Shown here one piece after another: positions 21,780 to 49,600 of a stretch of 64,000 nucleotides of DNA. Under the pieces are notes generated by a model that searched no databases, was not told the origin of the DNA, and saw only the letters and a list, made by a program, of their open reading frames with translations. The position numbers and the translations under genes were made by a program. Numbering within the stretch: the stretch's first letter is position 1; each line of letters opens with the position of its first letter. Location: positions 3,891,501 to 3,955,500 of the forward strand of contig NC_083506.1 of assembly GCF_032362555.1 (NCBI RefSeq), read 5' to 3'. Source of the stretch: Amyelois transitella. Its lineage: Eukaryota; Arthropoda; Insecta; Lepidoptera; Pyralidae.

Positions 21780-24425
21780 ATGGGGGACATTGTTGGTAAG
21801 TGGTACGGATTATAAGGAATAGTACCAATCAATCATACTGCCGAAAACCTACCGGCAGGTCTTCTGGCAGTGTTTGTTTTCATTTTTTAATCTCACAATT
21901 AATTGGTGTGACATGTTCAAATTTTTTTAGAACTAACGACCCTTCCTCGAGAACAAAAGGTGTTCTACAAAGTTCCAACAGGCGGCCTTAAGTTTGCAGT
22001 TAAAGGGGCAAATAATGCTGCCATTGGGATACATTCTAAAAAAGAATCTAAGAGTGTAAATTTCTGGGTAAGTATGGTATTAATTTGATAGTTGTAATTA
22101 TTATGTATTTATGGATATGTGGCAGGTAATTTACATAGTGTAATATTGAAAGAAAGAATCAATGATATCATGAAACCAGAGTAATTATAATTAAAAAGGA
22201 GTTTTAGTGACATGGCAAGTGACAGCCTACTTAAAGTGTGGGATAAAGTGTATAAGAGGAAAAACTTTACCTATACCTACTATACTTCAATGCCCAAAAA
22301 ATTGGCTCTTATGTTTATCTAGTTATGTTCTGTCTACTATAATAATAGGAATGTAGATGTCTTCGTGTTCCCTCTGGCATTAGTCCCCAATAAATCCATA
22401 CCTTTTTGGAGAGGAGCCTTAGATGCGCTTTTATGACCATGAACCTGGTGCAGGTTTCCTAATGATATTTTGCCTTGTCATTAGAGCATCGGTTAGCAAT
22501 ATAGATACTGTAGGAACACTGAATGTATGTAAGTACCCATACTAACTACTCCATTGAATATCGGTTAAACCACATTAAAACATTCCAGCTCAGTAGAAAA
22601 CTTCACCCCAAATTTCGTTCAAAACCTAGTAATAATAAGGAATTATTATTAGGAAGGTTCATCCATTTGTCAACTTTTATTAGATAAAAAAGTAACTAGG
22701 TATGTACCTACTACTTTCTTAATGATGGTTTAAAATTAGATCTTCTCATACATACAATGTCTATATCTATATCCCTTGCGGGGTAAACACAGCCAACAGT
22801 CTTGAATGGACTGAAAGTTTAATGATAGAATTGAGATTCAAATAGTGACATGTTGCTAGCCCATTACCTAAAAAGTCGCCTTTTACGACATCCATGGGAA
22901 AGAGATGGAGTGGTCCTATTCTTTTTTTATTGGTGCCGGGAACCACATGGCACATATTCTCAGTTGAGACATTTATTTATTCTTAGGTGGTGCTAGGGCG
23001 AAGGCAATGCACCTGGCTCAGATCTACTTCTGGATCTTGTAAGGCACATACACCGAACATCTTAAGCCCAGCTGAATACAGAAGTTTTTGGATATCATGG
23101 AGTAATTTAGCTGTCAGTATTGGTAGGGAAGGGGAAAAAGAGCCTATCCTTACAATTCCAGAAAAACACAGTAGAGATCTTTGTTATGTAACATTTTTCG
23201 TAAACTCTAGGGGATTCAGCCCCGTGCATTGGAAATTTGAATGTGAGTTATTTTCTAAGCTATCTATAAGTACTTATAATTAATTTGCAGTATGCAAGCA
23301 GGATCAATTCTGTATGTGTATGCCACAAATCTACCAGTTGGATTACAATGAAACTTATAAGTGTCTAGAGCCAATTTAGCAGTACTTCATAGAATGAAAG
23401 GAAAAATAGACTATTGCAGTGGTGACTATTGCATTTGCAATAAACAACATAGTGCACAAGCGAAGCCTCTGGCAAAAACTTAGTGAGCATAATATACCTC
23501 TCAACATACTATACAGTATGTTGAGATGTCTCATGTTATACAGCATTATTTATTGAGCAATGGTTATATAAGAGGTGCATGAGAGCATTAATAATTATTG
23601 ATGTTTAAAACAAATAAAATAAAATGTTATTTTCAGTGGCTCCTGAAATTCCAAGGCCTATAGAGAAACGCATAGATGGTGGAACAGTTAGGTGGGTACG
23701 TTCAGAAAACCAGGTACCATGGAATGCAATCATTGGTGGCTATGAGCATGAAACTCTCTACATAATACGGGCCCTACATAGAGGCTCCCTTGCAGTAGGA
23801 AAATTTGTACCATCAAAACGTGTGGGCTACATTCCTTGGGGTTCTGAATCACACGAAAAAAGAGGTGCTGAACTTGAAGTGAGTAGAATATATATTAAAT
23901 AGCATAGTGTATATTTTTTTGTAATAGCCTGTTTTGTGAACCTCTGCTTGGCAAAGGCCTCCACTTTTTCCCTCCACAAGCCTCTATCTAAAAAATAGTT
24001 TGTCAGAAAATTATTAACCTTCAAATGCAAAATTTAAAACTACATATTCTATTTTTCAGTTTTTGGTTGGTTATGACTGCCATTGGGTACCGACAAGTGG
24101 AAGTGAAATTCCCGTGGGAGCTGTTGTTGGAGGATACACAGAGCACCAACCTGGTGAAAATATTTACGTCGCCCGCGCTTATTGCAGAACTCACCTCATA
24201 CCTGGAAAGGTTCATAGGATGTATGGACAGTGCTACACGCCTTATGAAAACAAAGAATTTGGACATTCAAACTATGAGGTCCTAGTATCACCAGAAATCA
24301 ATCAGCGAAGTATGAAAATAGTATTCACTGATCACATATCAATTGATACACCCACTGGGTCTGACGTGGGAGAATCTGATGAGGATGGAATTGTCGAAGA
24401 ATATGATGATTATTATAACTTGTGA
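21780..24425 (+). CDS. Methyltransf_FA + two DM9 repeats protein (gene 3)
   Basis: Exons 21780-21795, 21931-22067, 22987-23242, 23637-23878 and 24060-24425 give 338 residues with the same phases as gene 2. Residues 1-136 are Methyltransf_FA-like (FYKVPTGGLKFAVKG, YRSFWISWSN). DM9 repeat 1 reads VRWVRSENQVPWNAIIGGYE ... YIIRALHRG. DM9 repeat 2 reads CHWVPTSGSEIPVGAVVGGY ... YVARAYCR. An acidic tail follows (GESDEDGIVEEYDDYYNL). It starts about 1.6 kb after gene 2 in the same direction and is clearly its duplicate. Intron 2 carries a family A repeat (22756-22957, minus). Possible polyadenylation signals (AATAAA) lie at about 24520-24570. Confidence 0.9.
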
Positions 24426-25643: not shown

Positions 25644-28600
25644 ATGACTTCTGCAACGCCTTCGGAATTCGCTGCAAGCGAAATGCCTGCTTCGCTAGCT
25701 GGGGAAGGTAACTACTTATTATTAAATTAATACGCTCACTCGAGTTTAACCCAGTAAAAAAGGAGGTTGTCTTCGTAAAGCAAAATTCTTTACGCACAGG
25801 GTGCTGACGCGCCGCCTGTCTTAAGGACGACTATGAAAAATTATAGTAGGTAGTTACATAAAGTAAGTTAGAAATGCATTTGTCGGCTTGCAGCGACGCC
25901 CGCTGCGCCAGCGACGTCGTTTCCACCTTACCCGCCGTACGCGACGGAGCCTGCGCCCGCGTCGGTGGCCGACGCCATCGTCGCTGGCCGGGACCTTCGC
26001 GTCATGCACAAGTCACTGCCAAGGAAACCGGTGCGCCCTCCACCAAGACCTGCTAGACCCAGGTATCGAAATATATATATGGAAATTATTATTTCTGGTT
26101 ATCGTAGTTGAGCAATATACATACCTATGCGTACCTACTGTTTATAATTTTAGGGGTCCAAGCCGCAGACGTGTACTTAGTTATCGCGCCCGTTGTCAGC
26201 AACAGCATTGAGTCTTTCAGACCAACCGGTTGGAGAGCAACAAAATAGCACTAAATCCTCGGAAGTTATCATGTTACAAAGGGGATGCTACCTGCGTATT
26301 AAACAGTTTGAAGTAACATGCGTGCTTTTCACTTTTTTGTAGGGGTCCAAAAGCCACCGACGTGAAGTTGTCGCGGGCGGCAATGCGAGCTCACGCCCGC
26401 TGCCTGCGCCGCCACGGGGCCGTGCTGACGGACAGGCTGGAGTACATGTCGAAGCCCCCGCGACGGTCCATCATCTACCTGTGGAGAGAACACGCTCATA
26501 CTTTACCTGCGGAGACGGTGCGTATACTTTATATTGTACTCTGTTACTAGCACTTGGACCGAAAAGAATGTAACCGCTATATTTCATCATCTCAGGGTAA
26601 GCTCATCTGCTCCATTCCAAATTTCTTAAAAATCAGTCAAGCTTGACTGTGAATTCCTACAAGAGAGACTTTAGCAGTGAAGACCAGGGTGACGGTGTTT
26701 TTCATGTTCATCTTCTTAAATACTGCGCATAATTTGCGTCACACACGACACATCCAGAACCTCATACAATACTTAAGAAGGAGGTCATTATATCTTTGTG
26801 CTGGTAATCGAATCCACAAACAAATCTAAATTAATCGTGTTCAGATCGCTCGTCTGCGCGCGATGCTGGATGCTGACGAGCCTTTCAAGCCAGATCAAGC
26901 CTACGAGTATTTCATCAACCTTAAAAAGACAAGGAAGAGGAATGCTGCGTGAGTAATAATTTCAATAGATTCAAATTTTGTAGAAATTCGATAATTAGAT
27001 AATAAGGTATATTTGAAAGTAATATGTACAGACATAATATTTATTTGCTTTTCGAAGAACCTTTTTTAAGTAGATACTTATCGTGTGTTTGCGCGATGTG
27101 ATGTTGCCATTTTTGGCGAATTCAAAAGTCACCACAACTCATCAACTGAAAAAAAACGTACCTTATTATTTTTGTGAATTTATAAAACTGTAGGTTTGAC
27201 CACGAAAGTACAAGAAATCATCATGAAATTATAAGGCATTTTTTGTTTTCTAAATCCAAATGACAAATATTGTACATACAATTAGTACCCACTAAGTAAT
27301 AGTAGGTAGTTTATTTTCCTAAGGATCCGTGTGAACCAGATCAAGAAGGACGTTTTGGCGATATGCGCAGACAAACGTTTCGTTTGGGCGCGCAACGCCA
27401 CCGTGGCGTTCGCCCGGGGCATCCAACAGCGGCTGGCAAGGCCCGGACGATACGCCCTTGCCGACAAGTGACTATACATATTCTATTTATTTATATAACA
27501 CATCAATGCAGTATCTTTACAGCCTCAGTGATCACGTTCTTATTCCTTACGGGGTAGACAGAGTTAACAGACTCGCAAGACTGAAAGGCCGGATTCCCCT
27601 GTGTGGCTTGGCTTTATGATGGAATTGAAGTTCAAATAGTGACAGGATACTAGCCTATTGCCTAGAACAAGTGTTTATTGTTAGGTACTAGCATTCGCAC
27701 GCCGCTCCGACTGCGCGAACGCTATGTTCTTCTTCGTATTACACTAAATGTATGCAATATTTCATGGAGATCGGTTGAGTGGTTTTGACATGAAGGGTTG
27801 ACAAACAAACACACTAACATAGTTAAACATTTATATAATATAAATATGGATTTTAATATCAAATGGAATGAGTTCTTCGGTTAGTCTTAGAGTCTTGTAA
27901 TAGCTAGAAACTCACTGACACTTGTATAGGTAAAGTGCATGGGTTTTTGTGGGCAATAATTGAACAATTTTCTAAGACGCGAGTTTAAACCATCTAGATG
28001 TATTCATCTTTAGGGCAGGTTTTTCATCCTATGAAAGTTTTTTTCATGTAACTCAAGGCTACTATGTCGTTATACATATCTAACCTTGCATTCTCTTAAT
28101 TTTACCAAAACTATTTGTTGAATTGAAGGAAGCATTGGGTATATGATTTGTTAATTTAAAAATAATAATTGACACGAGTAAATCCTTGAAATGGTTTGAA
28201 CAGAATGCTAAGACTGTCGAACATAATTTTGGGCGAGCTATGCGGCTGCATGCACACGAAGCCTCCATCCCGCAGGAACACCCATCCTAAAGCTAGATTC
28301 ATGATGGAGATGGCCGACAAAGTAAGTTATCACTACATAGTATAAAACAAAGTCGCTATTTTAGTCTGTTTGTCTGTATGCTTAAATCTTTAAAATTACG
28401 CAACGGATTTTGATGCGGTTTTTTGTAACAGGTAGAGTGATTCAAGAGGAAGGTTTTTATGTATAATAACATTTATAATTTTGCACCCGTGCGAAGCCGG
28501 GGCGGGTCGCTAGTTAATTTAGAACTATCTGTTGCCTGTTAAGTAATACAAGTAGTTCACTGGCAGTTTCAAAAATGTTGAGTCCTTGTATTGCCAATAT

Positions 28601-31600
28601 CCTATACGGATATGGCTCTGTTACACAATTTCATTATTTTGTATGAATTGGATAATCATATACTTAGTACCTATTTGCTTTAATTTTGCGATAATTCGTC
28701 ATCCTTTGTATGTATGTAATGTAATTATTGAATTTTCAGGTTGCAGTTTGGATCGATGAAATACTGGCAGAGTCTGATGATCGCATGCTCATGATGGACT
28801 TCGACGAAGATGACGGTAAGTGGGTAACTTAACCCATAAATAATTGTCCTATACTGTTTGAAAGCAAGAAAAAACAGCGTTGCGGACTAGACTAAGAATT
28901 TCAGATACGACAATAGAGGGACTGAGGGAATTTCAGAAGGTTGGTGAATGACCAAAATGAAATTAGAAAAACTAACATCAAGTTAAATTGTTGTCCATGA
29001 TCAAAACGGTTAAACGAAATTTAAATAATTTTAACTGTACAAAACCGTGGAAAAATTTGATTGGTGTGCTTTGATTCCACATCGCGAATTAAGATATTGG
29101 TCCATCATATTTAAGGTAAGGGTCTCAAATTATGACCATTGTTCAAAAGCCCTATCAGACTTCTTCATGAAATAAAGTTTTGTCGATTAGTATCTAGATA
29201 TGTAAAATTAGAAAATTTGTCTGAGGAAAATGGGGTCACTCGAAAACGGTGAACAATTGTCATGAATTTCAAAACACCGTAGTTAGACAGTCACCCCATT
29301 TTTCTCAGAGGCTGTATGCGGTGGTTTAAGGTACGTCACAGAAGTTCGCACGAAGTCCATTTAGCAGTGTTTGACTACCATTTTAAATTTGCAAAAAAAT
29401 TATTAGAGACTTTCAATGAAATAATTATTAATGTTTTTATTAATAAACTTAAATGAGAAAATAAACATTATACAAAAGTCTTTCTGTATGTCTAGACTAC
29501 TACAAACAACAAAATGGGCTTCGTAAGGCATTCTCTTACCTAGCTACTTCTATTTTTATCCATGTGAAGAAGTGGAACGGAGTCATGCTGATGACAAGAG
29601 GCCGGAGGTGGCTCCTGACGCCGCTGGGACCCCCACCACCACTTCGGGAGGCACGAGCCCCACGGCGACCCCCAACGACACGCCGAACCCCACGCCGGGC
29701 CCCACGCCCCTTACCACTCCGGCTGTCACACCGAAAGCATCGGCAAGCAATTTAAGCAAACAGTAAATGGTAAGTATCGGTCGGGCCGTACATTCCGTCG
29801 CCCGAAAGCTATATTGGCCATATCACGATGTGGTTGGACGATTCTTGAAGAAGTATTTAGCGATTTAGTCGGCCATGTCAATAAATGAATGGATGAAGAA
29901 TTATTTATTCGACTAACTTGGACTCACAATATGTTAGTACACTTAATGCTATGTTTGTAATAATATAATTTTTGTCATTATCTAAATGTATACCATTTTC
30001 CATTTACCATTTTCCAGCTAAAAACTGGGCGGATCGTTAAGTGGCGCTAGGTTGTCTATTCTATCGTAAAGCCAGCTGAACGTGGCTTTTCAGTCTTATT
30101 GAAAATGTTGGCACTGTCTACCCTGTAAGGGATGTTTATGTATACGATATACTTATGTATGTAAAAGTGTGTTTAAAATGAGAAGTTGTTTTTTTTTACT
30201 ATAAAGTGGGTAGTTTTTCTCGTCTTTAATATTAAGAGATGCACTTACATGAAATATACAAATTAAATTCAATATATGTATGTAATAATTAAATTGATGT
30301 AAAATTTTACACTTTTCTTGCTTATTTGAAGATGTAATGGAAGCAGATGCCGCAGGCGGCGGCTATGGCGACGCAGGATTCGCCGACGACTTTCTCAATA
30401 TGATGGGCGAAGTAAGTGCAATACCTTTTAACACTATTAAAGTGGATATACTGCCAATATGATTGAAATTAGATCAAGTAACTGGTTCTGTCTGAAATAG
30501 ATTCTACGATTTTTCCTTAATGCAAAAACATCGTTACAAGTTATGACGAAGGTTACGAACTCACCTTACTTTTCGTTAACCGCATAGCAATGTCTACGAA
30601 TCTGCTTTACGTTTTCAGACCTCGTAGCAAGGTCAACGAACCCACCTTATTTATGTAAGCCTCGTAGCAAGGTTTGTGAATCCGCCTTACCTTTCCAAAG
30701 CTTCGTGGTAACGTCTACGAACGTCTACGAGCCTAGTTACGAGGTCTACGAACCCGCTTTACTTTTCGTAAGCTTGCTACGAAAGCAAGGTCTACGACCT
30801 TACGATACAATTTGTAAAAAACTAGATATGGTTGTAATTAACTCTCAAAACTTGCGAGATAAGTTTTTAACTTTGTTTTTACTATTTTTCATAGGATAAC
30901 GGTAGCTGCATATTATCAATTAAGATTATCTTCATGCCGGACCTTAATTGGATGATAGACAACTATGACACAGTCCTAAACAAAAGCAAACCTCAGTCTA
31001 CTGCAATCACCTGAATTTTTTTACAACAAAGAAATTTATCAAAATTCCCACTTACTGACAAAGTTTTTGTAGTGTGCCAATTATGATGTTAACAATGATT
31101 TATTTTAAGAAGTATATAATAAAAAAAATAAAGTAAAATATGTAACTTTATCAATGTTTTTTATTTTCCTATCTCGTACAAGTGAACACGCCGTCAGACA
31201 AAGGTAACTATTTGTCTTCATAATGAAAAAAACCTTTCTTCATTTGCTCCATTTTAATGGCTTTACTTTCGTATATTTTCCGAAAAGTGTATTAGCGTGT
31301 TCATTTTGTACAAGATTGGAGATTGAAGAAAGGTTTGATATTTTGAACTTTTGGTAAATAACTTAATTGTCTTTAAATTAATTATTATCTGTTTCAGGGA
31401 GGACTTCTCAAAGGACGTAAGTATAACTTTTGCAGATTTGTAGTTTGTTTTTTGTATATCTATACTCGTATCATAGTACAATATAATTCATGTCATTCAG
31501 TCGTAAAAACAATCAACAAATTATTTGTTGCAGCGTCACCGGCATATCTCAAGTTTTCTGGTAAGTGAAACATGATCTTATTTTTTTTTATATATACATA

Positions 31601-34600
31601 TTTTAATTAATTAGAAACTTCAATTATTATTTTTTGATCAGGTGAAATGTTGGAAGCTTTTATGATTCTCACTGATTCGATGGAAAAGAAAGGGAATGCG
31701 GAGCTTTTGACCCACGGAAAGTTCACGCAGACTTACGAAGAAGGAGCTGATGAGTATGACGATACATAGAACTTCTATTTGTCGCTACAAACACACACTA
31801 TACAGTCGCATAAATTTAGACCAACTTTTCAAAAAAAGGTGTAAATGACTCAAATATACTAAATATTAAACGTCGTGAAACCTAAATTCTCATTCCCTTC
31901 TGTCTTATTTTAAGTTTATTCGTTATAAACAAACACAAAATTCTATTTTTTAAGTATAGATACGCATGGTTGCTCTGCAGTAGCAAAATAAGGCTAAAGA
32001 TAAAATTATTACCCTTGAGGATAATGCAATACACTAATACACAAATTTTCAGTTAAAGCCCCAAAGGTCAGTGCGAGGAACAGTTGAGAAATCGTTATCC
32101 TTTCAGATTAAAACAAGCAACCAATTTCGAAGCCCCAGATATTGATACGACTCTAGCTGAAAAGTTACATACGGACCTGGCGGAAGTCGTAAAGTCTAAC
32201 ACACCGAGCAAATTGGCATCAAATATGAAAGGTTTTCATTGTCATTATATATTTTGGTATGACTTAAACTAAGTCTTGCATGCTGGTATGATAGCGAAAA
32301 AAAACGTAGTGTGTGTCAGCTGGACTAACTACCTGTCATTTCAGTCTCAATTCCATCGTGATGATATGTAGGTATAAGTAGGTAAATAGGTTCCTATGAA
32401 TGTGTAACTTAAACGATTCCTTAAATTGTTTGACGAAGCATATTGCTGACACACTTTTGTTGCTATTATAATTTTTTGACTAACAAAAATATTCTTATAA
32501 GATTAACTTTTAAACAAATAAGTTCAATTCTGCCGTCTGTTTTTTTTCAGAGATGGTTAACATATGCGGGAATTACTTAGCGCAAAATGCAGAATATAAT
32601 AGTAAGTATGTAATACAATGACAATACAAGAAATATCAACAACATATTACAAATCAGACGGTCTCCTAGTCGCTCGCAGTCTAGCAGTCAAGGTATTATA
32701 TATTGCCCATATTGGAATGCTACCACGGTCATGTATGTACCACGGTCATGTATGTACCAACCTTTAGTAAACCTGCATATTCAGAAAATATGGATTATTC
32801 CGAATGCAAAGTTTGCTGAAGACTGATGTCAGGACGACGGAGTCACCTCGTGTTTTGTGATAGGATTTTATAAAAATCTGTTTGATAGTTTTGTAGTCGT
32901 ATTGTTATGATACAACATTTTAATTAATTAGGTACGCCACTTTATTTTAATTACAGAGGATAAAGGCCCTGCATTCCGGTTGCTAATAGAAGCTATGAAG
33001 AAGAAGCCCAATGAGAAACTATTTGAGCAAGGGAAAGCTAAACGCACTTACGGCGCTGCTGCGGCTGAGTGAGATACTTTTATAAATATAATAAATAAGT
33101 AAATCTTATAAAATGTATAATTACCAATACGTCGAGATAGATTTTTAAAGTTGTAACTGGCTTTAGTGGTTAAACGAATACAATGTCTTAAAATACCATA
33201 ATACACCGGTTCAAATCCTACTCTGAACATTTATAAATGAGTTATGTGCAGTTATCATATCTATCGTATGCGCTCTTACGGCGTAGGAAGTGAAGCAGTG
33301 GAGCTATCACCCTATCTTTGAAGTTTTATTAATGACTAAATGTCTTTAAACAGCCTTCAAAAGGCCAAGGGTCTTGAAACGGATCACGATGAGCCCAACC
33401 TGTCTCAAGCGATACACGCTTCCCTGACGAAGACTGTGGAGAGCACCACGCCGCCCGAACTGAAGGCTGAAATGGCAGGTAACATACTAATATCTTTTAC
33501 ATACATACATACATATGGTCACGTCTATATCCCTTGTGGGGTAGACAGATCAACAGTCTTGAAAAGACTGATAGGCCACGTTCAGCTATTTGGCTTAATG
33601 ATAGAATTGGATTCAAATAGAGACAGGTTGCTAGCCCATTAGCTAAAAGAGGATTATCATCTTGTATTTTTGTCTTGTATTTTTGTTAGTAACAATTTGA
33701 TTTTGATGATTTTTGGTAGGTATACGTAATAAGCGCTATATCAAGAGCTAATATCAGCCTCAAAATGGTTAAGTAACTAATTGTTAAAAAGAAAACGAAT
33801 TTGTGAAACAAAATAAGGGCCTAAGTATTTATTACTTAACATAATTTCACCTTACAGATACTGTGGATCTCTGTTCAAAGTATTTGTCTGAGCAGGCGGT
33901 AGACGAAAGTAAGTAAAACCACTAGTAGTTTTTGGCTAACGAACAACACAACAGCTTTTACATACCAATATTCCATAAATAGGCATTTTGTTTCATAGAC
34001 CTCTTAATAGTTCGACGTTTGCTACATGGGTGATTAGCTAGCTAGGCAGATTGCTCATTAGAACTTTCGCTTTGTTTGACATTTTGCACTTAGACTCTGT
34101 GATCGGGAAGACTTCATATTAAGTTTTACCAACGGAGGAGAGTGGTATCCACCACGGAATAATTTGGTTACCATCAAGTAATAAAGACTGTTTAATAATG
34201 CTGTAAGCACTAAGTCCGCTTGTTGCACCATTAACATTGTATTTTGTATAATATGGAATCCATATTAAAATTATGAAAATCTGTCCGTCTGTCTGTTCCA
34301 CTTTCACAGCTAAACCGCTGGACCGATTCGAATGAAATTTAGTATGCATTTAGTTAAAACCCCGTGTTCTAAAAAGGATGCTTTTTCAAAAATCAAGCTT
34401 TTTGGAAGTTAATGTTTGTATGGAAATAAATAAGGTTAAATATTGTATGGAAATAATAAAATCAATAATTAAAATCAGGTAACCCCAGAATGTTTCTGTA
34501 GATACGCCAATGAAAGCATTAGTTTCATGAGTACCTATACAAAGTAATAGCTTAAAATACTATTTCAGACGAGCGCGGACCAGCCTTTGACCTTCTCATT

Positions 34601-37600
34601 GACACATTAGAGCATTTGGGAACCGAACCGTTCACCCCCAATCATCCTCCATTGGCATATTGCTTTGAGACAGCATACACGTTAGTATTACATACATATG
34701 TTTTTTTTTCTACTTTAATATAGTAGTTAGCCTATTTGTTAGCGTGAATTACCACAAACTTAGGTATACATTAAAAATTATTCACAACCAATCAGATGCT
34801 GATTACATATTTGTAAAATCCTGGCCTTCTCCTCCGGCTCACAAAATAGTCTACTCATAATTATGCAGTTTATTTTTAGTAAAATTAATTGTGCATGATC
34901 AACGTTTTGTAGCGGGAGCCTTATTTTGGCTCTACCGCCACCAAAGGGAAAATCTTCCGCCAGGCTAAGTTTCTTCAATAAATTAGCTCGTGAAAAATTA
35001 CAATTTTGAAATGCAATTAATGTTTGATTTAGCTTGAAATCAGCCCCCGGTTTGACCGTGAGCAATCCGGACCCAACAACAGCGCCTATGTTCAAGGAGG
35101 CATTGCACAAGGCAGTTGACGTCTCCACTCCAAAGAATCTAAAAAGGGATATGGACGGTAAGAATAAAACACAGCATTTCTTTTTTTATTTTAGACAATT
35201 TATTTTCTTTGTAATACAAATATTTTCGTTAATATTAATTGTATACCTACTAACTTTGATAAAACCATTTATGTAAAATATAAAATCATGAATGAATTTG
35301 TTCCCTGCCACAGACCTACTGGGACCTAGGTTAGAAAATAACACTATTCCGTAATTAAATAACACAACATTCACTTAAGGTATTTATTTGATATTATGAG
35401 CCTATTCTATTTAATTGTTATTACGTAAGACTAAAAATAATGTAATAATTTGTTTTTCAGAGGTTGTCGACAGATGCGCTAATTACTTATCTGCGTTTGT
35501 TCGTGACAGGGGTAAGATATTATACCAACCGTTGGAGCTATTCTCAAATATTTTCAAGCATATGTTATTCAGTTATTAGCCATTAGCCTTTTCAACGTTC
35601 GTGAATAGTTCCTAAGGTTCGATTTACTAAGGTTATGTCTTATATCTTTCTTTTTTACTTACCATCCATTAGCTAAGTCAAAAAGAACGAATAGAGTGAA
35701 AAGTGATTATTTTCTTCGCAGATCTAGCAATGGGAAATTTGCTTAAAATGATGAAGGCGGCTGGTCCAAAAGAGTTGGTTAAAAGAAATAATTTCAGCTT
35801 GTCTTATGGAACCGGAGCTACTGAGTAAGAATATTATTTACTAGCGGCCCAGATATAACACCCGCAGATTCGGTGAAAGAATTATCATGATACATACATA
35901 CATACATATCGTCACGTCTATATCCCTTGCGGGGTAGACAGAGCCAACAGTCTTTTATAAAGACTGAATGGCCACGTTCAGCTATTTGGCTTAATGATAG
36001 AATTGAGATTCAAATAGTGACAGGTTGCTAACTCATCGCCTAAAAAAGAATTCCAAGTTTGTAAGCCTATTCCTTAGTAGCCTTTTACGACATCCATGGG
36101 AAAGAGATGGAGTGGTCCTATTCTTTTTTGTATTGGTGCCAGGAACCACACGGCACTCTATATAATAAATAATTGTTTTGTACCTACTGGTTTACGAAAT
36201 CAAAATTAGAAATTTATTTTTTTGTCATTTTTATTTTAGAATCGAAACATCTCCCACTATAGTACCGTATTCGCCGATTAAAGATGTCTCAAATGAAATA
36301 AAAGCAAAGTTGACAACCGATATGGAGGGCAAATTTCCACCAAATCTTGCACTGGCTACAAAATGTAAGTAATACCTACTCGTAGCTTTACAATATCTTA
36401 CTCGTACTACATGTTTATCTCAATATTCAAGTGTAAGAATGAAAAGTTTAATGTTTCTAAGCGCCTTTTTTTGTTTCGTTTGATCCCCCACTTGTACGTT
36501 TACCAAATGATAAATAATATGTTATGAATAGAATATTTTATACATTTCTTTCCCCTTACAGCGGCTATTCAAGATGCTTCTAAGTTCTTGTCACAGGTGG
36601 TGGCTTTAAGAAGTAAGTTGATTTTTTTTATAAAACTATTGATAACATATCCCATTATATAAGCTAGATCCTAAATTGTATTACCTAGAACCACAACAAA
36701 GTTGAATATTGTCCTGAAATTGCTTGATAATATACAAATTCCTAGTTTTATTATGCAAATCAAACATCTTAAGTCAGGCATAAAGAATGTAAACTTAACT
36801 AAACTATTAGTTACTTACATACACTTATTTGGGTCAAATGTAATTTGTAGGTGGTATAGGCGGTTCAAGATATTCGATGAATTTCTTGGCGGCGGTCATT
36901 CGGTCCTTGGGGAAGAGACCTCTATTCAAGTACAAGCACTATGGCCAGACCTACAAAGAAGGCGGAGACACGTAAAACTAATACATTAATTAATATTGAT
37001 AACTCATTTTGGCCCGGAATTGGCTACTGTTATATTTAAAAAAAAATTAGGCTACTTGCTTCCTTGGCATACGCCTTCGGCATCATTACTTTGTCAAATT
37101 AAAACACTACCCATTTAATGATTTTGACTTTACATTGATAAGTAGGTAAGCCATGCCAATCCTTTTACAGACAAAGATAATGAGTACGCACCTTTTTATG
37201 AGCTACCCTAGGTTTCGCTTCTCTAGGTATGTTCGGGCCTGTGGTCTCTTTCTGACTTTCATTTTCTCCTTTGTCCGGTTTACAGCTCTCCTCAGTATTA
37301 AGACCATTAGCACATTGACTTCAAGCCAGGTTTTTGGGCCTACCCCTTCTACCAAAGCCCGGCTAAGGCAGCATAGCTCATTTTAACCCGATAACTCCCA
37401 GGACAGCCGAAAACCGGCTCTATTGTATTTTGAATTAACAAAAAGTTGAAAGTTTTGATTTATTTAAATTATATTTGTTTTTGCCACTCCATCTCTTTCC
37501 CATGGATGTCGTAAAATGCGACTAAGGGATAGGCTTACAATTTTGGGATTCTTTTTTAGGCGATGGGCTAGCAACCTGTCACTATATGAATCTCAATTCT

Positions 37601-40600
37601 ATCATTAAGCCAAATAGCTGAACGTGGCCATTCAGTCTTTTCAAGACTGTTGGCTCTACCCCGCAAGGGATATAGACGTGACCATATGTATGTATGTATA
37701 TTTGTTTACAGTTTAAAATACGTTGGTCCCTTAGAACACGACCCTAAGAGCGATAACTTAATGTATGAGATTTCCGCGGAAATGGGGAGGGGCGTCCCCT
37801 CCAAACTATCGCCAGGAGTCACAGAAAACGTGAGAGGTATGCATATTTTATATTTTTCATACGCGGTTATCACGACTTTATTCTTTACGGAGTTGACCTA
37901 ACATATTTCACAAAACTTTACGTCTTTGTAATGAAATTAAGTTTCGGAGATACAGTCAGGTGGTTAGTAGGTTAATTGTAAACCTGACATTACCATAAAA
38001 ACCACTGTTCTTAACAGATTATGCTACAAAACACAATAAAATATATTTTTTTTGACTTGTTCTATAGGAAAATAATCTAATACTAATAACTAATAATAAT
38101 CTAATACTAAAATAATCTTATTCGAGATCAAATTCTTTTGTGTGTATGATTGTTAGATATAAAAAAAAATTGTTTCAGATACTATGGGTGACGCTTCGAA
38201 ACATTTGGCTAAAGTGGGGATGGAAAAGGGTAAGATCGTAATCAGTTTCAGTGAAATTGTAATATTTTTACATGCACAGTTTCAACCAGTGAAAATACGT
38301 TGGTAAATTTAGTATACTTATACATATAAGTAATAAGTAAAATAGCTTTTTACTAGTTACTTTTAAATACAATTTTACATAAGTAAATCTCAGTTTATAT
38401 TAGGTACAATTCCTTTTGTACACTGGTACCCACTGTAAAAACAGGAATGTGACGTAGGTAACTAACAACTAGGTGACTAACAAAAAACGAGACATTAAAC
38501 TCTATGCAAATCATCTATAGGAATGGCGTTGGATCACTTGGTAAAAGTGATGAGAGAAGACGGCGGCGATTCTCCCCTGGGACAGTTACAAGGATACCAG
38601 CAGTCTTACAATGATGGGGCTAGAAGGTAAAGCAAATGGCACTATAGGCGTACGCCAGTCATTTTACCTATAATTTGCAATGGGTGTGGGTAAAACTCTT
38701 ACCGTTTTAGAAAAGGAATTCAGGTGGGTACTGGGATCATAGATAGGTAAACATCAGTGATCGTGCTAGAAGAATTTAAAACGCAAGTTCCGGCTGTCAT
38801 ACTCATTTTTTTTCCCTTACCATGAAAACAATCGGTTAGCGGTTTGACTAATTTACTCTATGTTTTTCATAAATGGAACGACGTAACACTGTATGAACGT
38901 AATAATGCCCGCTAATGTTCAGCAGTTTATTATTTTAATACTTTTATTCTTACTGATTTAGTCTCAAATATAAAGTTTCAGTTCTAACTTGTATACCAAT
39001 ATAATTTCAGAATTGAAAATGCTCCATCTTTGCATAATGACAAAGTTGACAAAGGCGCGTATGAATCTGTGAGAGGTAAACTGACGGAATTAACTGAGAA
39101 ACGACCTGCTAAAGAGCACGAAAAACATATGGCAGGTAGGTATATACCATGATTTTGTGTGGAAAAGTTGACTGGCTTATTAATCAAAAATAATAATGAA
39201 AAGGTCACCTTTCTCCTATTCGTTTTGGCTAATAAGTCAAAACCATAGAATAGGTTTTTGTAATGTTATGCTAAGTAACTACATGTAATAATAATGTATT
39301 ATTATATGTTTATAATTCAGCTAACCTCCAAGTAGATATTCAACAGTTGTAATAAAGCAAAATCCCAATCCCATAGAAAAGCTTGTTTTATGTAATAAAA
39401 CCTCGTCTTATTTGTGAAAATTTGTGTAATAAAAGTTTTTATTTCTTTTAAGGGATCGTCGATGATGCCTCAAAATTTTTGGCAGCGCCATTTCCGGAAA
39501 GTAAGTACATACTTAAATGTTTTAAATTATTTACAAAATTATTCTTCTAGCCAAGAAGATGGGATAGAATAAGCTTGGGACTGATTTTGAGATTCATCCT
39601 ATAGTATTTTTTATTAATAGAGCTCCTTAATATACAGCCGATAAGGAGAAACGTCGGGTGCTAGCTGACCTCATGGGCCGGCAGGGCGACACCATCGTAG
39701 GCCAAGAAGGGATTTACAAACTGACGTACACTGAAGGTGGAGATGAGTAGGTACCTTTTTCACATAACTCTCCCCAAAATATAGCAATTGGAATAAAAAA
39801 AGACAAAATAAATATTGTACTTAAACACTGCAGGTGTCATGTGTCGTAATATTGCATAAAAGCTGTCAATTCTCAGAGATGCAATATGAAAACTTTATAG
39901 TGTTACAACCATCAGTTGCGACGTTACATTACCTACGACTTCTATAGTCTTATATTATTCCGAAATCTATACCTACCCTAGACTATGGCCCAATACTTAC
40001 GAGCCGAGACATTACGTACTATATAACATAGATATAATAATCTTGAAAATATTTTACCGTTCCATTATTGTTCAAACTTTTCAGAATAATGAAAGCTCCA
40101 ATAGGTGTGACATCAGCCCACGATGAGTCAAAACGCAAGGCCATGCTCGGCAAGGTGGAGGGTGTCATACCCGAGCAGAAGCTAAAGGCTGCGCTTAAAG
40201 GTACGGTACCTATTCCCACGAGAAATCACAATGGTAAATGCTCTTGAGGTAAACTATGCTCTCGTAGTCCAAAAAAGGCGAGAAACCACGTGTAGGACAT
40301 AATATGGATGGTGATGTGATGATTAACATGTATTTTAATAGTAGCCACATATTTAAAATATCTCCTCCTAAATTACCTCGAAATTTTTCGATACTTCTTT
40401 GTCTCTTTCTAGTAAGGCCAATTAGAAAGAGTTGGAATAAAAAAAATCTGTGGAGGTAGTTTATCGATAAAAATTGTGGCGTTCATGGTTTTACGTACTT
40501 CTATGCGATAATAATGTTATTTATTGTCTAGATTTACGTGCATACATCTTTTTCCAGATCCGGCGCACGAAGGAGCCGCACATCTGACTGATATTATAAA

Positions 40601-43600
40601 AGGAAGAGGTGGGTAAAAAACATTTTTAAAATGTCATAAATATTTAAAACTAGCTTTTCTAGAGAAGCCTATATTACTTCTAAAGGTCTATCTTTGTCCT
40701 AAATTTAGTCAAAATTGATCCAGTAGATTTTGAGTTTATTCTTCAAATACAAATCTTTCCTTATTATAAATATGTTTTTAAAATTTAAAAACATTATTAT
40801 TTCCTAAGAGCATATAATATCTATCACCTTATATACCTATACATATAAGTTGGGGCAAGGATAGTCATAGTATTCTTAGGTGCATATTTACCTAAGACTT
40901 GAACAAAGTGTGAAAATAAAAGAAATGATAAAATACTTTTAAACTGTATGTTCATATTATATCTCCTTGTTTATTAAGTCATATACTAACTGAAACAAAT
41001 TCCTATATAGGAGAAGCAATGCAAGTTATTCATGATGCGATGGATAAAGAGAAAGGGAAGGAATTCCTCACGATTGGCAAGTTTAGCGCGACCCATGAGA
41101 AGGCTGCCGAAATGTGAGTGCATCGTACAATTTCACAGACACGAACGCGTGGACACGGTTCTCTAGCTATTATTTTCTGAGCTCGATAACTGTTTTTTTT
41201 ATTTCAGTTCTCGACCATTATTTAGGGAGAATTCTCACTAAATTGTAACACTGGTATACGCGTAAGTACTCATGGACATGAAAAGCCCGTCACTATTAAG
41301 AGTTTCCTCAAAGTTGGAATTTTTCAGGATTGGAAATGCGCCACATTTTGGAGGTCAACGACCTGCTCCTTTTATCGAAGAAAAGGTCGGCGAAAAAATT
41401 AAGGCCCTTAATTTGACTGGAGGCTCGGCTGTTGCCCAGAAGAATATGTCTGGTAAGTGGCCGGTGTTGAGGAAATCTTTACATTTACTATTGAGCTCGG
41501 CAGTATAAGTAATTACTGTTACCTGCTTATTTTGTGGCTTCTTACCTTGAGCGAGAACTTTTTCATACAAATATATAGTTCTGATCACTAGTAGCATGGT
41601 AAATTTCGTCGATTTTGTTTCATTATTCTGAGTACTTTAATATGTACACATATTTCAGAAACGGCTGATATCACGAAGACCTATTTGGCGGGAGTCGCGA
41701 CCAATGAAAGTGAGTTCTCTTTTTGACAACTCTGATAAAATTTTCGCCCCGCAAAATTTTGTCGTGAATTAAAGTATTCTTCTACTCAAATGGAAGCCCT
41801 TTTATTTGAACTAGTTATATTGAGGATTCGTGACAAAATTTGTATTGCGGGTGAGGTGGCAACAATCTTTTACCGATTGCCATGAAACATTTTGTGTACT
41901 TTTAGGTGGATTAGATCCTAAAGCGTTGGCCGAGATGGATCCCTCAATGAAGGGAATGCTGGCAGGATTAGGAGGAAAAGGACGACCTGGGTAATTCTTT
42001 TTTTAATTTACGTTCTTACCCGTTCTACTCCGTAAAAAACGAGATTAAACTTAACAACTACATATTAAGAAATTTTCTGCCTCTAACTAATAAGTTAGAG
42101 GGAAATTAAATAAAGTTATTAGGTACTTAGTAGTTAATAAACTTTTTTTAATAAACTTTAATTTCCCCAATATACAAACCGAAACTTATATTTCAATAAT
42201 TTGGTTTTACCTTTGAAAATTGAAAAAGTCATCAACGAAAGTTTAAAAGTACATTTATAACTTCTTTTTCACATTTCTCGCAGCTCTCCAGAAACTGAGG
42301 AAGAGCGTCGTAGACGGGAAGCAGAAGAGGCGCGGATACGGGCAGCGGGGGGAGCCGGTGGAATCGGAGGGGCGGGGGGTGCCGGGGGAATCGGAGGGGT
42401 GGGAGGAGCGGGGTCAGGCGGCGGCCCGGGCGGGGCAGGAGCGTGGGGCGCAGGGGCAGGCGGGGTCGGAGGTTTGTTACCATACACATATGTCACGATT
42501 TTATCCTATGCGGAATAGACAGGGCCAAAATGTCACAAAATTTAGCTGCATGGCGTATTGATGAAACTGAAATTCAGACAAAGTGATTATTGACATGTTG
42601 CTAAGGGAGTATTCCATACCCTTACAAAAAAAATCTCAATTTCATAAGTCTTTGATACCAGTTGGACACGAATACCTCCGACTGGCTAACTACAAATAAT
42701 AAAGTCTATATGAAGTAAATCATTTAGTTCCTCTCATACATACTGCCTTTGTCACCTTAATTCTAAATATAGAATTTTAATCAATTTATTTTACATAGGT
42801 AAATTAAGATCAGTTAAATTTAGAAACAAAGCATTCAAATAACACATTAGTATTTATGACTCAGGTAACATTAGACAGGTGATAAAAGTGCCTGTTCATC
42901 TCTGTACGATACAGGTTTTGGTGCAGGAGGAAGTCCAGATAGCTTAGAAGCGCGCAAACGCAGGGAGGAAGAGGAAAGGAAAAGACGTGAAGCCCTGGCG
43001 CGATCCGGTAAGAATCTTGACTACTACACTACTATGCCATAAAAAAAATGTATATATGAGAAAAAATACTCAAATTCAGCTAGCCCCAAAGTAAGTTCAA
43101 GATTTGTGTTATGGGATACTAAACTAAAAGATAAACTAGAACTAAACTCAAAGATACTATATTTTGTAATATAGCATCTTTGAGTTAGTTGACAAGACAT
43201 ACCAGAAAAAACCTTACAATCAAAATTTGTTTGAGTCAGCAAAAGGTTTATAAATACTGCGATTGTTTGGAAGGTCCGTAGACAGGTGGGCTAATTCCAC
43301 TTTGTACTATGCCCCATTGAAAGTGTCAAATACCTTAAATTTCGTCCAGTTCCATTGAAACGATATAGATAGCTTATAGCCTAGGCCTAACTGAGCCTAT
43401 AGCCTAGACTAGGTCACACATCTTCTTTGTATAAAATTTCTCATATTGTAAAAATTGTCGACATGCGCATCCAGTGAGGCTGCCGAGTAGATTGGATGGA
43501 TGAATGCTACTTACTCAATAATTTGATTTCTAGGTCGAGGCAGTGGTAGCGGAAGTGGCAGTAAGTATTTTCATGACCAAATTTTTCAGAAGAATTATTT

Positions 43601-46600
43601 TAGAACAAATATATGATGTATATTTCATCCTTATTTTTTTTTTATTATTTTTAAGCAAGCTTTAGTTTTTTTACACGATATTTGAGTGCGACGTTTGCAT
43701 TCAGGCGAAATAGATCCGGAGCGACGTATGGCGCAGGAGATCCTTCACAAACAACTTAAGGCCAAAGGAGGGGAGACGCTATACAAACAACCACCTACTG
43801 AGCTTTCTCATTCACAGGCCTCTGATTGGTAAATATGATATATACCTACATTATTACAACTCTTTTATAGAATAATGTAGGAAATCGAAAATTTTCAAGG
43901 ATATTAAGAAAGACAAATCTTGAATTTTCAACTTTCACATTTATAAATTATCATATCGTTATTGTGTGACTTGGACTTAAGTATTTATGGTTTTAAGAAC
44001 TTTGTCATTCTGATAAATATGACACTTTATTAATAGGTTAAAAGACCCACCGATGAAGGTAGACAAATCAGTGAAGGAGTCTGGGGATACGGACCGACTG
44101 CATAAGAAGTTTGAGAGGAAACTCAGCAACTTGGTCAGCAAAATTACTCCTCCCAATATGGCTGACACGATGCAAGGTAATTAAATTATACACAGCCAAA
44201 ACAATAGAAATTTTTTATTTAATTCAAAAGCCGATTCTATGCTGTTACCCAATCTTGATACATTTCTGGACCGTGTTTCTCAATATTCGTCATTGATATG
44301 CATGCCTTCAACCCAGTTTCTCGGTTTCTAAAGTAGTGTCAATATTTTTTGGTTGAAGGTTGTGACGAGAAATAATAATTTTTTGTTTGTTTCTTAACGG
44401 TCGCCGTTTTGCAGTTGTGTTTAGGATTCTGTTATCGTGCTGTTTTTTCTCGGCATGGGTTGGTTCTCGTTCTATTATCAATCACAGCTGTATGACTACA
44501 GTTTGATAGTGACTATTGCCATTTACCCATGTTTGAATATATTTCGGTTCAACACCGTTTCTATGAGTGTTTTGAGGACGTCATTTTATGATTATTTCGC
44601 GACATGGGCTGTTTCTCGGTTATTTCTCGGTCATAGACGTATCTCAATAATTAACCATCATAGTTTCTCGGGTTCTCCTAAATCTTTGCCATTTGTGTTC
44701 AGCATTTCATTTTCACGTTAACCATCAATACGTACCTTCATTAAATAGGATCAAAATTTATCAATACGCTTAAGATTTTTATTCTATTACGCCCGTATTA
44801 TATCGTAAGCAACAATTATTTACAAAAACGTTTTAATTTGCAGATGTCGTCATCGAATCATCAAGGCAGCTCTCTGAATACTTCGTGTCCAGCAGTAAGT
44901 AGAATTATTGTATTATGGTATATCGAAACATCGTTTTTTTTTCTATTTTACACCATGTTTTTCTTTTTAATTATAAGAAATCCCACAAAGCTACCTACTC
45001 AAATATTTTAAAATTTCAAAGATTACAAGGCGCTGGCGCGCGACGGTCTCATATCCGAGATGCAGAGAAAAGGCAACGAAATACTAATAGACTTGGACGG
45101 CAACGCTGAAACATTCTTCTTTGCTGCTCAAAGGCGAGTTTCTATAAGTTCACTTGCCATTATTTTAAATTTTATAATTTTTTTATGTTACAAAAACAAC
45201 GTCGCATGCATAACATTTTTAAAAGCACCAATTACTTATTCGTTTCCGTCTACATTCATATAATCACGTCTATATCCCATACGACTGTTGGCTCTGTCTA
45301 CCCAGACAGAGCAAACAGTCACGCGAAAACTGTAAAGTCACGTTCAGCTGTAATGGCTTCATGATTGAATTGAGATTCAAATAGTGACAAGTTGCTAGCC
45401 TATTGCCAAAAAAAGAATCCCAAGTTTATTGTCCCATCCCTTTGTCGCCTTTTACGACATCCTAATGTAAAGTGCCAAAAACCACACGGCACTTTCAGTC
45501 ATATATGAAGATTTTTTGGGATTTCATTAATCATCCTTTTGTTCTGCTCAGATTGAAGAAGGCTAAAGATCCCTTACAAGCGAAAGAGCCATGCAACCAA
45601 GTGGCTTACCAACTGGGCAAGAAACTGGATGACATGATACGGTGTCGGTCCATGGCGAGAAAACTAACTGCCACCATGAAAGGTAACAATATGTGACCGA
45701 AGCCTATCTTACAAACAGAATGAGAAATCATGTGACAACATTTAGAACTTTTAACTCTACTACTTAAATTATAAACGATGTCGTCTTTCTTACAGATCAC
45801 ATAAAGGATGCCGCTGAATATTTATCAGGACTTGTAACCAAACCAGGTAATAACTGAATTTAGCATAATTTTATAATACAACATAAGCATATCATTAATT
45901 TTTGTTTCTACTACACGTTTGTAGACCTACCTAGGATAAATTTAGGACAAAAGGTATGGTTGAGAATATTAACCGCGAAGCTCGTCGGTTGGAATGAAAA
46001 GCCACGATCCGGCCACTTACCACAAGTGGTAGGCAGAGACTACTCTTTCCCTACTCTTCGGAGAAAGATCCCTCTGATAAAATGTATATATGTATGCAGA
46101 TGAAGAGATCGAGGCGTACGTGGCTCTGCTGGGCGAAATGGAGTCCAGAGGGGACTCACTACTTATTGAAGGAGATATTCCGAAGTCATACTCCGACGCT
46201 GCTAAATAGTTAGTACTCAAATGAAAACGAATCCAAAATGCTTTTGAGTTATGATTTTACTATGAAAGAGCACCTCACTTACTTCAGCTAATCACAACAG
46301 TTGATTAACACATACAGTTCTTTAAGAACTTTTTAAATCTTGCATTAACGCCAGTAAGATATTATGTACGAGTACATACGAATATAACTGTAACTATAAT
46401 TAATAAAATAGTCTTGTTTAAATTTCGTACAGTTTTACCAATAAGTGTTCAAGAACTGAAGCATCTTCGACGTATCAAATTCAATATTTTTTTTAATAAT
46501 TTGTCAGTCTCCGCCAATTGACTACTTGGGAAGATCAAATAAGAAGGCCGAACAGTTCTCTACAAAGTTCCACGGAGTCAAAACTGAAGACTATGATGGC

Positions 46601-49600
46601 GAACGTGGAGCCCAGGGGTTACAGCAAGGGAGTGTTGGATGGTAAATATATCATATTTAAGTGATTTTGTATTGCGTCATCTAAAACTATATTCTCGTAA
46701 CATTAAAAAAATTAAGAAATTGCACTTTGAATTTTCACAAAAATATATCTTTAATGCACAAAAAATACATCTTTAGTATCAATAAAACTTTATCCGTTTA
46801 TATTTTATCCCTATAAATATTTTGCTTAACAAGAACCAATATTGACCAATTTTCTTACCCGTAAACAGGTGTCATCCAAAAGTGCACAAAACTGCTCGTT
46901 TCCTACATCATGCTTCAAGGTAAGTTTTACCAACATATTATTTTCATTTATTTTTGTTTAAATTATTTTTCTTTATTAAAAAATAAAATTGTTTTAAGGT
47001 GAAAAGACGGAAGCCCTGAAGGTTCTGATAGAACAAATGGAGAAAGCTGGCGAAGGAGTTTTGTTACGACATGGAGCTATCCAAAAGTCCTACAACCAGG
47101 GTGCAGCTATGTAGGAAATTTTTATTATTATATTTCGATAACATTTTTTAGCACGTTGACTATTTTATATTATATTCTTTGGTATTGTTTCAGTCTACGA
47201 GGGAAGAATTCAGATCAGCTTAGTGTGCCTAATGCAGATCCGGTTGTGGCGAGGAAAATACAAATCAAGTTCAAAAACCTCATGAGTAATGCTACTCCCG
47301 ACAAATATAAGTCCCTTATGGATGGTAAGAATTCCAAAAAAAGTTTAATTTACAATATTTGCAAATTGATTGAATCTTAACTAAAATCAAAGGAATTGCT
47401 TCCAGATGTAATTGAGGATGCTACAATGTATCTTGCTGTCCATTTCCTGCAACCACGTAAGTATAATTAACTGCCACTGTTCATTTGAGCTACGAAGGAT
47501 GGTGTTGTTTTTTTCAATTCACGTAATATGTATTTTATTAATACCTACAAGAGTTTAACGCTTCTTCTTTCAGAGGTGATACAAGTGTGCAAGTGCATGA
47601 AGAACGTGTTCGTGCAGTGCGAGCTGTGGTGCGACGAGATCCTGCGGCGCGTGGCGCGGCCGTGCTGCACGTGCTCGCGGCACGTGTCGGTGCAGGCGCT
47701 GGCCGACCTCGCGCCCGCGCAGCGCCTGCGCGTCAGCCCCGGCGGCTCGCAGGCCTTCGCGCCCGGCCTCGAGATCTCCCTCACGCAGTGCCCCAAGCTC
47801 AGGGCCCGCGGCAACAAGTCCAGCCAGGACGTCTGCCCCGCGAAAAACCCGAGCAGCGGCTGCAACCAAGTGTCTGCCTCCTATCTCCTCTACTCCACGT
47901 CGTACGACCGCTCCCCCAGCCCCACCAAGCTGCCGCGCGAAGTCGCCGACACGAGCTCCTTCGAAACTACCACGTCCTCCACCAGCCTTCACGACAAACC
48001 GCCGGTGATGATGACCCGGTCGCAACCTACTAAACTTACGCAACCTCCCGCTACGTCCACCTCTCAAATGGAGCCGGAACAGGAAACATCGGAACACTCG
48101 ACCGGTGCGTCGTTTTACACGCCGCCGTCTGGTCAGGGATCGAGTAGTTCTCCGAAGTCGAAGAAGACTGGCGGCCCGTACTTCCAAGCGCCGACGACGA
48201 TGTTTGCGAAGATAAAGCAACACGACATAAATGTACAAGCTCCAGCTCCGGAGCGGTCGGGGTCGCCTTATCTACAGAGTCAGACTTACAGCTCGCGTGA
48301 GTAATTCTTGAACGCTTTTATTTACCTTGCACAGTTTTTAATATCATCACTTGAGTAGATATCCTTATTGATTCTGTTCTAGCAGCTGTTACTATAAATA
48401 CCCGTATTGCCTGCGAACCCTATCCACGTAGCCTTGGTATTTCATTAATTTATGTTTTGAATTATTTCCTCTACTTTTACGCGCATTTGTAAATAGTTTA
48501 TCGGATCAATTACAAGGTGAATTTACCGACATTACCAGGAACACCAATTGTGTCGACGGACCAGATGGGCGACTGGCACGCCATGATGGTCAGCCTGATG
48601 TGGAACGTACAGGCCTGGCGCGACTGGATCCAAGAGAACATCGACAGAGCCCTGTCTTGGAGCCAAACCGATGAATCATTAGGTAATAAACACTAAAAGT
48701 GGGCCTGCTGGAAGAAATTTCTCTAGAAATGAGTAGTGCTCTTATACTGAATTCCTCTTTATTTTAAGTTTTATACTTATATTCCTTGATGTACAAAATG
48801 CACATTAATATATAAATAAATAAATTATTAAAATGAAATTAACGATTTCAGCACCTGAAATGCTGCTTGTTGTCATCGTCATAACATTTATTTGTTTGAC
48901 ATTTTCAAAAGAATGATAATGTTTTTAGCGTTAATTTTATATAGGGTATATAGTTAAAATAACCACTCGCAGATCGTCCACTGCTCGTAATGAGCAATTT
49001 CTCCATAAATTTTAACAGAATAAATTGTGATATTAAATTAACCCTAAATTTGGGAAAGATAATGATGCATGAATCGTGTTTTACTCGTAATAGACCTAGA
49101 AATGAAAAGGGATTGATCATTCTAAACAATCACCTTGGTAACGTGAAATTTTATACTTCCTATATTCAAATAACAGACAACTGGACAACATTCCAACGAA
49201 GAGTTTCTCAAGAGGCCTTGCAATGGCGACAATACAACACCTTCAGTCGGCAGCTCACACTGCGGCTTGCTCTGCGGTATCGAGACAAACAGGTGAAGAC
49301 ATTTGCGGAAATTCTAGATTTAGTTGTTGCTTATTTTTATTGGTTAGTAGAGTTTTTTTAATTGATAATAATTATAAGTATATATTTATCCACAGAATTA
49401 AGTTACAACACTTTTTGTTTTAATTTTAGATAGTATCACCAACAAGGGCTACAGTGAAGACGGAAATTTACATGGAGTGTCAGAGAGAAATGCTGGACAT
49501 TATTGACATGTTCAACAGGTGGACTCATTGGCTGAACGTTGTTGTAAGTGCTTCGTTACTGGTTAAGGTACACACGGCTCAGGAGATAACTGGACTACCA

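Follow-up and report, generated by a model that had tools for sequence, protein, structure and literature searches.

An old tandem array of a three-exon unit in Amyelois transitella, with an apparent continuation into a DM9 domain

A 64,000-nucleotide (nt) stretch of the genome of the lepidopteran Amyelois transitella (contig NC_083506.1, positions 3,891,501 to 3,955,500; hereafter the window, with positions counted from its first letter) raises the question of what kind of protein is built from a long series of small, similar exons on its forward strand. An earlier reading of the letters, the sequence-only reading, had placed at 31398-48296 a module of ~95 residues repeated about twelve times, each copy encoded by one triplet of exons termed A, B and C. 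The exons are present in that interval, all twelve units score above shuffled sequences when held out of the profile used to find them, and the units are homologous with common exon phases, so that the region is an array of a tandemly duplicated exon group. Going beyond the sequence-only reading, the open frame seems to extend downstream to take in a Trp-rich pair and then a domain of the DM9 family (PF11901). The reading favored here, which falls just short of being probable, is that the protein is a long scaffold of the cell interior, made by one insect gene and tipped by a DM9 of non-canonical type.

The gene was rebuilt manually within positions 24000-58500, guided by splice sites and frame. 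Joining the exons by hand, including those listed in the sequence-only reading, yields a single open reading frame (ORF) across 59 exons (25644-51356, +) that encodes 2184 amino acids (aa). The sole stop among its 2185 codons is the terminal one, while the joined sequence read in its other two frames is interrupted by 109 and 113 stops. All 58 acceptors are AG and 57 of the 58 donors are GT, with GC used in exon C11; the donor of A2 is the weakest among the 58. In the joined gene, the GC content at third codon positions is 0.56, as compared to 0.32 in the introns. The junctions were picked by eye with the open frame as a guide, a choice that in part produced the frame itself. As a result, the splice-site counts and the open frame are not independent evidence, and homology between the exons becomes the independent test. 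All 59 exons are taken to be joined into one transcript.

The phases and lengths that had been claimed for the three exon types agree with the rebuilt gene. The A exons run from phase 2 to 1 in 12/13 cases (A1 runs from 0 to 1), the B exons from 1 to 1 in 13/13, and the C exons from 1 to 2 in 13/14 (C14 runs from 1 to 1). Setting aside the 19-nt A1, the 27-nt B1 and the 723-nt C14, seven of twelve A exons are 125 nt long (the others are 116, 131, 131, 134 and 140 nt), eleven of twelve B exons are 51 nt long (B7 is 48 nt), and C exons measure 103-121 nt in 11/13 cases, with C9 (85 nt) and C10 (124 nt) outside this range.

Homology was assessed with leave-one-out profiles. All full A-B-C modules were found (10/10) with scores of 19.7-67.0 bits, compared to at most 7.6 bits for 200 shuffles of each. 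When the exons were regrouped as C-A-B units, 12/12 were found at 21.9-82.7 bits (500 shuffles of each, at most 10.3 bits), and the C-A-B profile gave no more than 1.0 bits on 28 non-repeat segments of the same protein. Single exons, held out and ranked among the six-frame ORFs of the window with exons of the same type excluded, came first for five of ten A exons, four of ten B exons and nine of eleven C exons; B8 was not recovered by its held-out profile among these ORFs. Exon C10, which lay outside the training set, scored 14.7 bits as compared to 9.9 bits for the top non-family ORF. The A9-B9 stretch alone reaches 2.0 bits, and it is by its exact length, phase and position that it was assigned; A9, B9, C9 and B14 were assigned chiefly on position, length and phase. 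Taken together, the homology of the held-out units and their identical phases support the duplication of a three-exon genomic unit that the sequence-only reading had proposed.

Every rotation of A-B-C is phase-symmetric. The duplicated genomic unit fits C-A-B, with symmetric phases of 1-1, since the array opens with C1 and closes with B14 and leaves no partial units in this register. A thirteenth position (41906-43560, +) points the same way because it keeps its phases (1 to 2, 2 to 1, 1 to 1 and 1 to 1) despite a sequence rich in Gly, Arg and Glu. It consists of C9 (41906-41990) followed by D1 (42284-42471), D2 (42915-43007) and D3 (43534-43560), with D1-D3 forming the linker. The module profile has no matches across this linker region (residues 1092-1220), and the position is probably a former unit that decayed. 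Length differences at the B/C junction, judged by eye from the alignment, also fit C-A-B. The folded domain may run A-B-C instead, since the AlphaFold model of an A exon starts with a non-helical segment of lower confidence.

The twelve units all lie on the forward strand, and their held-out scores are given with their exons. Unit 1 spans 31642-32601 (C1 31642-31753, A2 32107-32231, B2 32551-32601; 82.2 bits) and is followed by unit 2 at 32957-33908 (C2 32957-33068, A3 33354-33478, B3 33858-33908; 82.7 bits), unit 3 at 34569-35511 (C3 34569-34680, A4 35033-35157, B4 35461-35511; 51.4 bits) and unit 4 at 35722-36612 (C4 35722-35824, A5 36240-36364, B5 36562-36612; 51.0 bits). Unit 5 covers 36851-38229 (C5 36851-36971, A6 37712-37836, B6 38179-38229; 36.8 bits), unit 6 covers 38521-39500 (C6 38521-38626, A7 39011-39135, B7 39453-39500; 54.4 bits), unit 7 covers 39638-40608 (C7 39638-39746, A8 40085-40200, B8 40558-40608; 21.9 bits) and unit 8 covers 41011-41709 (C8 41011-41113, A9 41328-41452, B9 41659-41709; 31.7 bits). 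Past the thirteenth position, the array resumes with unit 9 at 43705-44894 (C10 43705-43828, A11 44037-44176, B11 44844-44894; 46.1 bits), unit 10 at 45022-45846 (C11 45022-45133, A12 45552-45682, B12 45796-45846; 50.4 bits), unit 11 at 46100-46919 (C12 46100-46208, A13 46508-46641, B13 46869-46919; 27.1 bits) and unit 12 at 46999-47456 (C13 46999-47110, A14 47194-47324, B14 47406-47456; 66.1 bits).

Pairwise identity among the units ranges from 9 to 31%. With a mean of only 20%, the array is old, as the sequence-only reading had also concluded. There is no gradient of similarity along it, adjacent units being 20.1% identical (permutation p 0.40). The genome comprises 33 contigs and 327,366,114 bases. 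A protein search of it, for which units 1-7 and C8 served as the query and units 9-12 and C14 lay outside it, returned 20 matches, all 20 in the repeat gene. Thus, close copies of units 1-7 are absent from the rest of the genome by a search that works exon by exon and would miss paralogues as diverged as the units are from one another. Module exons were also sought in 17 stretches of 10 kb, 14 of them near DM9 matches on other contigs and three beside the window, and none scored above background: the best scores were 6.9 for A, 7.1 for C, 9.5 for B, 6.1 for the module and 5.9 for the unit, where the top non-family ORFs of the window reach 6.4 (A), 9.9 (C) and 8.4 (B). Viral and prokaryotic collections were scanned as well, which carries little weight for an insect protein. 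A pattern made from modules 3 and 4 (189 aa) matched 10 and 32 stretches of viral and genome contigs with no relatives confirmed, and 229 aa of the array gave no tblastn matches to phages.

AlphaFold modeled the peptide of exon C13 (12 rows) with a mean predicted local distance difference test score (pLDDT) of 95.1 and a predicted template modeling score (pTM) of 0.62; it presents a helix at residues 4-16, strands at 20-24 and 27-30, and a helix at 31-35. The peptide of exon A3 (12 rows; mean pLDDT 79.6, pTM 0.45) has helices at 16-31 and 34-40, the second of which probably runs on into B. Pieced together from these single-exon models, the unit would start with a helix, a β-hairpin and a short helix, which a linker would connect to two further helices.

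The sequence-only reading could not place the module in a known family, and the searches made here agree, with no match at cut-off in Pfam, NCBIfam or the PDB. In Pfam, the cut-off was reached by none of the 12 units and by none of the modules, of which 13 were scanned, including three partial ones, and the weak matches (E 0.07-0.26) involved one member each; the long first block gave bDLD1 at E 0.24 and 12.1 bits, compared to a cut-off of 25. The best NCBIfam matches (down to E 0.0083) were of single members to unrelated families, and profile searches of the PDB produced no significant match (best E 0.15, 0.044 and, for the C exons, 0.11). A Foldseek search with the 36-residue C-exon model returned 11 matches with a best E of 5.2, the query being too short for these to have meaning. 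Likenesses to RIIa, TPR and death domains were considered, and Pfam scans supported none of them.

It may be tentatively proposed that the unit represents a domain family not described before, with a new α/β arrangement and perhaps restricted to a single lineage of insects. Amplification would have produced thirteen copies ahead of a DM9 domain; the latter would then have lost its lectin function, and the outcome would be a long scaffold that lacks close copies in the rest of the genome. It is somewhat unlikely that the unit belongs to a known helical or winged-helix family and has diverged beyond the reach of sequence profiles. In the A-B-C register, the exon models are ordered helix, helix, helix and hairpin, an order that may resemble the three-helix core and β-hairpin wing of a winged helix; it comes from separate exon models rather than a folded whole unit and has no sequence match. 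The profile and Foldseek searches described above argue against a known family, and a helix running from A into B would have a length of approximately 23 residues, which is long for a winged helix.

Downstream of the array, exon C14 (47574-48296, +) encodes a Cys-containing part followed by a long tail rich in Ser, Thr and Pro; nine Cys occur in residues 1621-1854. A short motif, (V/L)W(I/C)DEIL, is common to exons N2 (28740-28815) and C14 (47574-47650), which flank the array on the same strand, though with a score of 30 compared to 29 for the best shuffle the likeness is marginal. Exons T1-T5 (48539-50114, +) are Trp-rich and carry the motif WxxFxxxVxxxAxxWxxYNT twice, in T2 and T5. The two copies align with a score of 51, which none of 1000 shuffles reached (best 41), and T1T2 compared to T3T4T5 was equaled in 1/1000 shuffles. 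Nine exon pairs outside the array were compared by shuffling, of which two (T2-T5 and N2-C14) stood at 0/1000 and the other seven at 92 to 477 of 1000.

The C-terminal DM9 pair (residues 2036-2184) is encoded by exons T6-T8 (50487-51356, +), with the stop at 51356 and an AATAAA at 51520. The joined exons match PF11901 in two stretches with an E of 2.9e-14 and 53.4 bits, above the curated cut-off of 26.2, and they belong to the family by this measure. They also match the oyster DM9 chains in the PDB (CGL1/CgDM9CP-1, labeled Natterin-3) with E of 3.1e-6 to 1.3e-5 over oyster residues 4-138. The mannose contacts of the oyster lectin are reported to be Asp22, Lys43 and Glu59 in site A, with Lys114 and Glu130 in site B (PMC4932603), and D22A and K43A are described as abolishing mannose binding (PMC5712788). 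In the repeat gene, these five columns are occupied by a gap, Ala, Val, Ala and Pro, so that the side chains by which the oyster lectin contacts mannose are replaced. The DM9 of the repeat gene is likely non-canonical and, judging from these substitutions, is not expected to be a mannose lectin.

Three further places in the window encode DM9, all upstream on the forward strand (2027-2691, 19536-20048 and 23684-24260), and together they contain six half-domain matches. Three half-domains, at ~2.0, 19.8 and 24.0 kb, were compared, and in 3/3 cases the canonical Lys and Glu are retained. Genome-wide, PF11901 has 18 matches, and these three places account for six. A genome search with T1-T8 also gave 18 matches, of which eight lie in the repeat gene and ten at other DM9 places; all ten fall in the DM9 part of the query, with a best E of 3.2e-4 and the others at 0.1 or worse.

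An intracellular scaffold would bring these parts together as follows. A three-exon, phase-symmetric unit would have been tandemly duplicated long ago to give a string of twelve small α/β domains, presumably elongated, in which the Gly-rich stretch separating unit 8 from unit 9 would act as a hinge. The array would be followed by the Ser/Pro-rich tail, which is probably disordered, then by the Trp-rich pair and the DM9 pair. Divergence of the units after duplication would fit different partners or spacers rather than repeated binding of one ligand. Since the family match is kept while the mannose-contacting side chains are gone, the DM9 end is likely a protein-binding or dimerizing element and not a canonical lectin. 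The two module blocks contain eight Cys in 1166 residues and have grand average of hydropathy (GRAVY) values of -0.53 and -0.47; few Cys and negative GRAVY fit an intracellular location. Mosquito PRS1, also a DM9 protein but a short one, is reported to reside in the cytoplasm and to move to vesicle-like structures (PMC2902509), which by analogy agrees with an intracellular location without proving it.

Several points weigh against this scaffold. Its intracellular location was judged by eye from composition, its fold models cover single-exon peptides and not a whole unit, and the searches turned up no homologue in other species. The exon-by-exon genome-wide search with PF11901 did not list the repeat gene's own DM9 exons, an omission that fits a diverged DM9. 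The gap at Asp22 is followed two residues later by an Asp, and a shifted alignment could restore this one doubtful position; among the neighboring half-domains, only one of three has Asp in that column. DM9 proteins could also bind other ligands through other residues.

A somewhat unlikely alternative, compatible with the other readings, is that two or three adjacent genes were wrongly joined: the repeat gene itself, a small gene upstream of it made of exons U1-N2 with its end at about 29766, and a separate DM9 gene. Exons U1-U5, N1 and N2 (25644-28815, +) form a phase-compatible open frame that would give a basic, Pro-rich N-terminus. They may come from a separate upstream gene because an alternative terminal exon, read by eye at approximately 29569-29766, ends in TAA with an AATAAA at 29880, and an in-frame ATG at 30337 in exon N3 offers an alternative start. 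The lead-in to the array (30332-31560, +) comprises N3, A1 and B1 and was defined partly by eye. At the other end, the transcript may stop upstream of the DM9 exons, given that the intron between T1 and T2 has AATAAA signals at 48685, 48815 and 49019. However, the phases connect all 59 exons without an internal stop, and AATAAA is frequent in the introns of this gene, so such signals weigh little. An 80-base-pair (bp) unit is repeated in 2.1 copies at 30554-30722 (+), in the intron preceding the array.

It is unlikely that the protein is a secreted or phagosomal pattern-recognition receptor with the array as its stalk and a DM9 end for the binding of microbial sugars, in the manner of oyster CgDM9CP-1/CGL1. 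The family match above the curated cut-off, the three other DM9-coding places in the window, and the mannose binding reported for oyster DM9 proteins (PMC5712788 and PMC4932603) speak for a receptor, but the mannose-contacting side chains are replaced at 5/5 positions of the alignment, the array is poor in Cys, and no signal sequence is evident by eye. A fast-evolving, repetitive structural protein of sperm or spermatids in the male germ line is improbable, for although diverged repeats and basic, Pro-rich N-terminal exons would fit as a guess from general knowledge, no paper among the 10 of 33 matches listed combines DM9 with a sperm proteome.

The scaffold can be compared with two kinds of known systems. 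While its DM9 pair aligns to the oyster protein, the oyster DM9 chain has 143 residues and mosquito PRS1 144, in contrast to the 2184-aa frame here. Other DM9 proteins are reported as fusions with farnesoic-acid-methyltransferase-type, pore-forming or RING parts, and the texts consulted mention no repeat array. Unlike the oyster lectin, the repeat gene has its mannose-contacting residues replaced. No DM9 protein with a repeat array was named in the DM9/DUF3421 literature found (titles and abstract openings, with few subscription journals), and "DM9" in PMC4490664 is a label for Toll-9 and not the domain. Titin, nebulin and spectrin are giant scaffold proteins built from tandem repeats. The repeat gene resembles them in its long tandem array of one diverged unit, apparently elongated, in a comparison made through Pfam; it differs in that its module blocks, modules and units match no Pfam family at the curated cut-off, theirs included.

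The array is a clean example of domain amplification through a three-exon, phase-symmetric unit that is still readable at ~20% identity, and it points to a domain missing from the copy of Pfam searched. DM9 is reported as a sugar-binding immune module in the oyster; here it seems to close off a giant protein and has its known sugar-contact residues replaced, which makes a non-lectin role of DM9 testable.

Elsewhere in the window, a 631-residue ORF at 12693-14588 (-) matches the DNA transposase 6pqn (E 8.6e-117, residues 119-579), which is presumably of the Transib type and from Helicoverpa zea; the same ORF scores 18.1 bits against Pfam RAG1, under the cut-off of 25. Open frames at 5907-7806 (+) resemble fragments of a retrotransposon lacking long terminal repeats by eye, and Pfam at 0.001 gave no matches for the ORFs at 5907-6365 and 7243-7803. 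A 162-bp (54-codon) unit occurs in 3.3 tandem copies with 94% matches at 58615-59148 and overlaps an ORF at 58824-59309 (-) that matches the ATP-binding domain of pyruvate phosphate dikinase (PPDK_N, E 5.7e-14). Its copies vary in poly-C length by eye, so the frame or the assembly may be affected. Finally, the 25-mer TATCCCTTGCGGGGTAGACAGAGCC is an interspersed repeat with seven copies on both strands at up to three mismatches (8338, 20955, 22770, 33528, 35921, 50191 and 59805), as compared to none in 100 shuffles.

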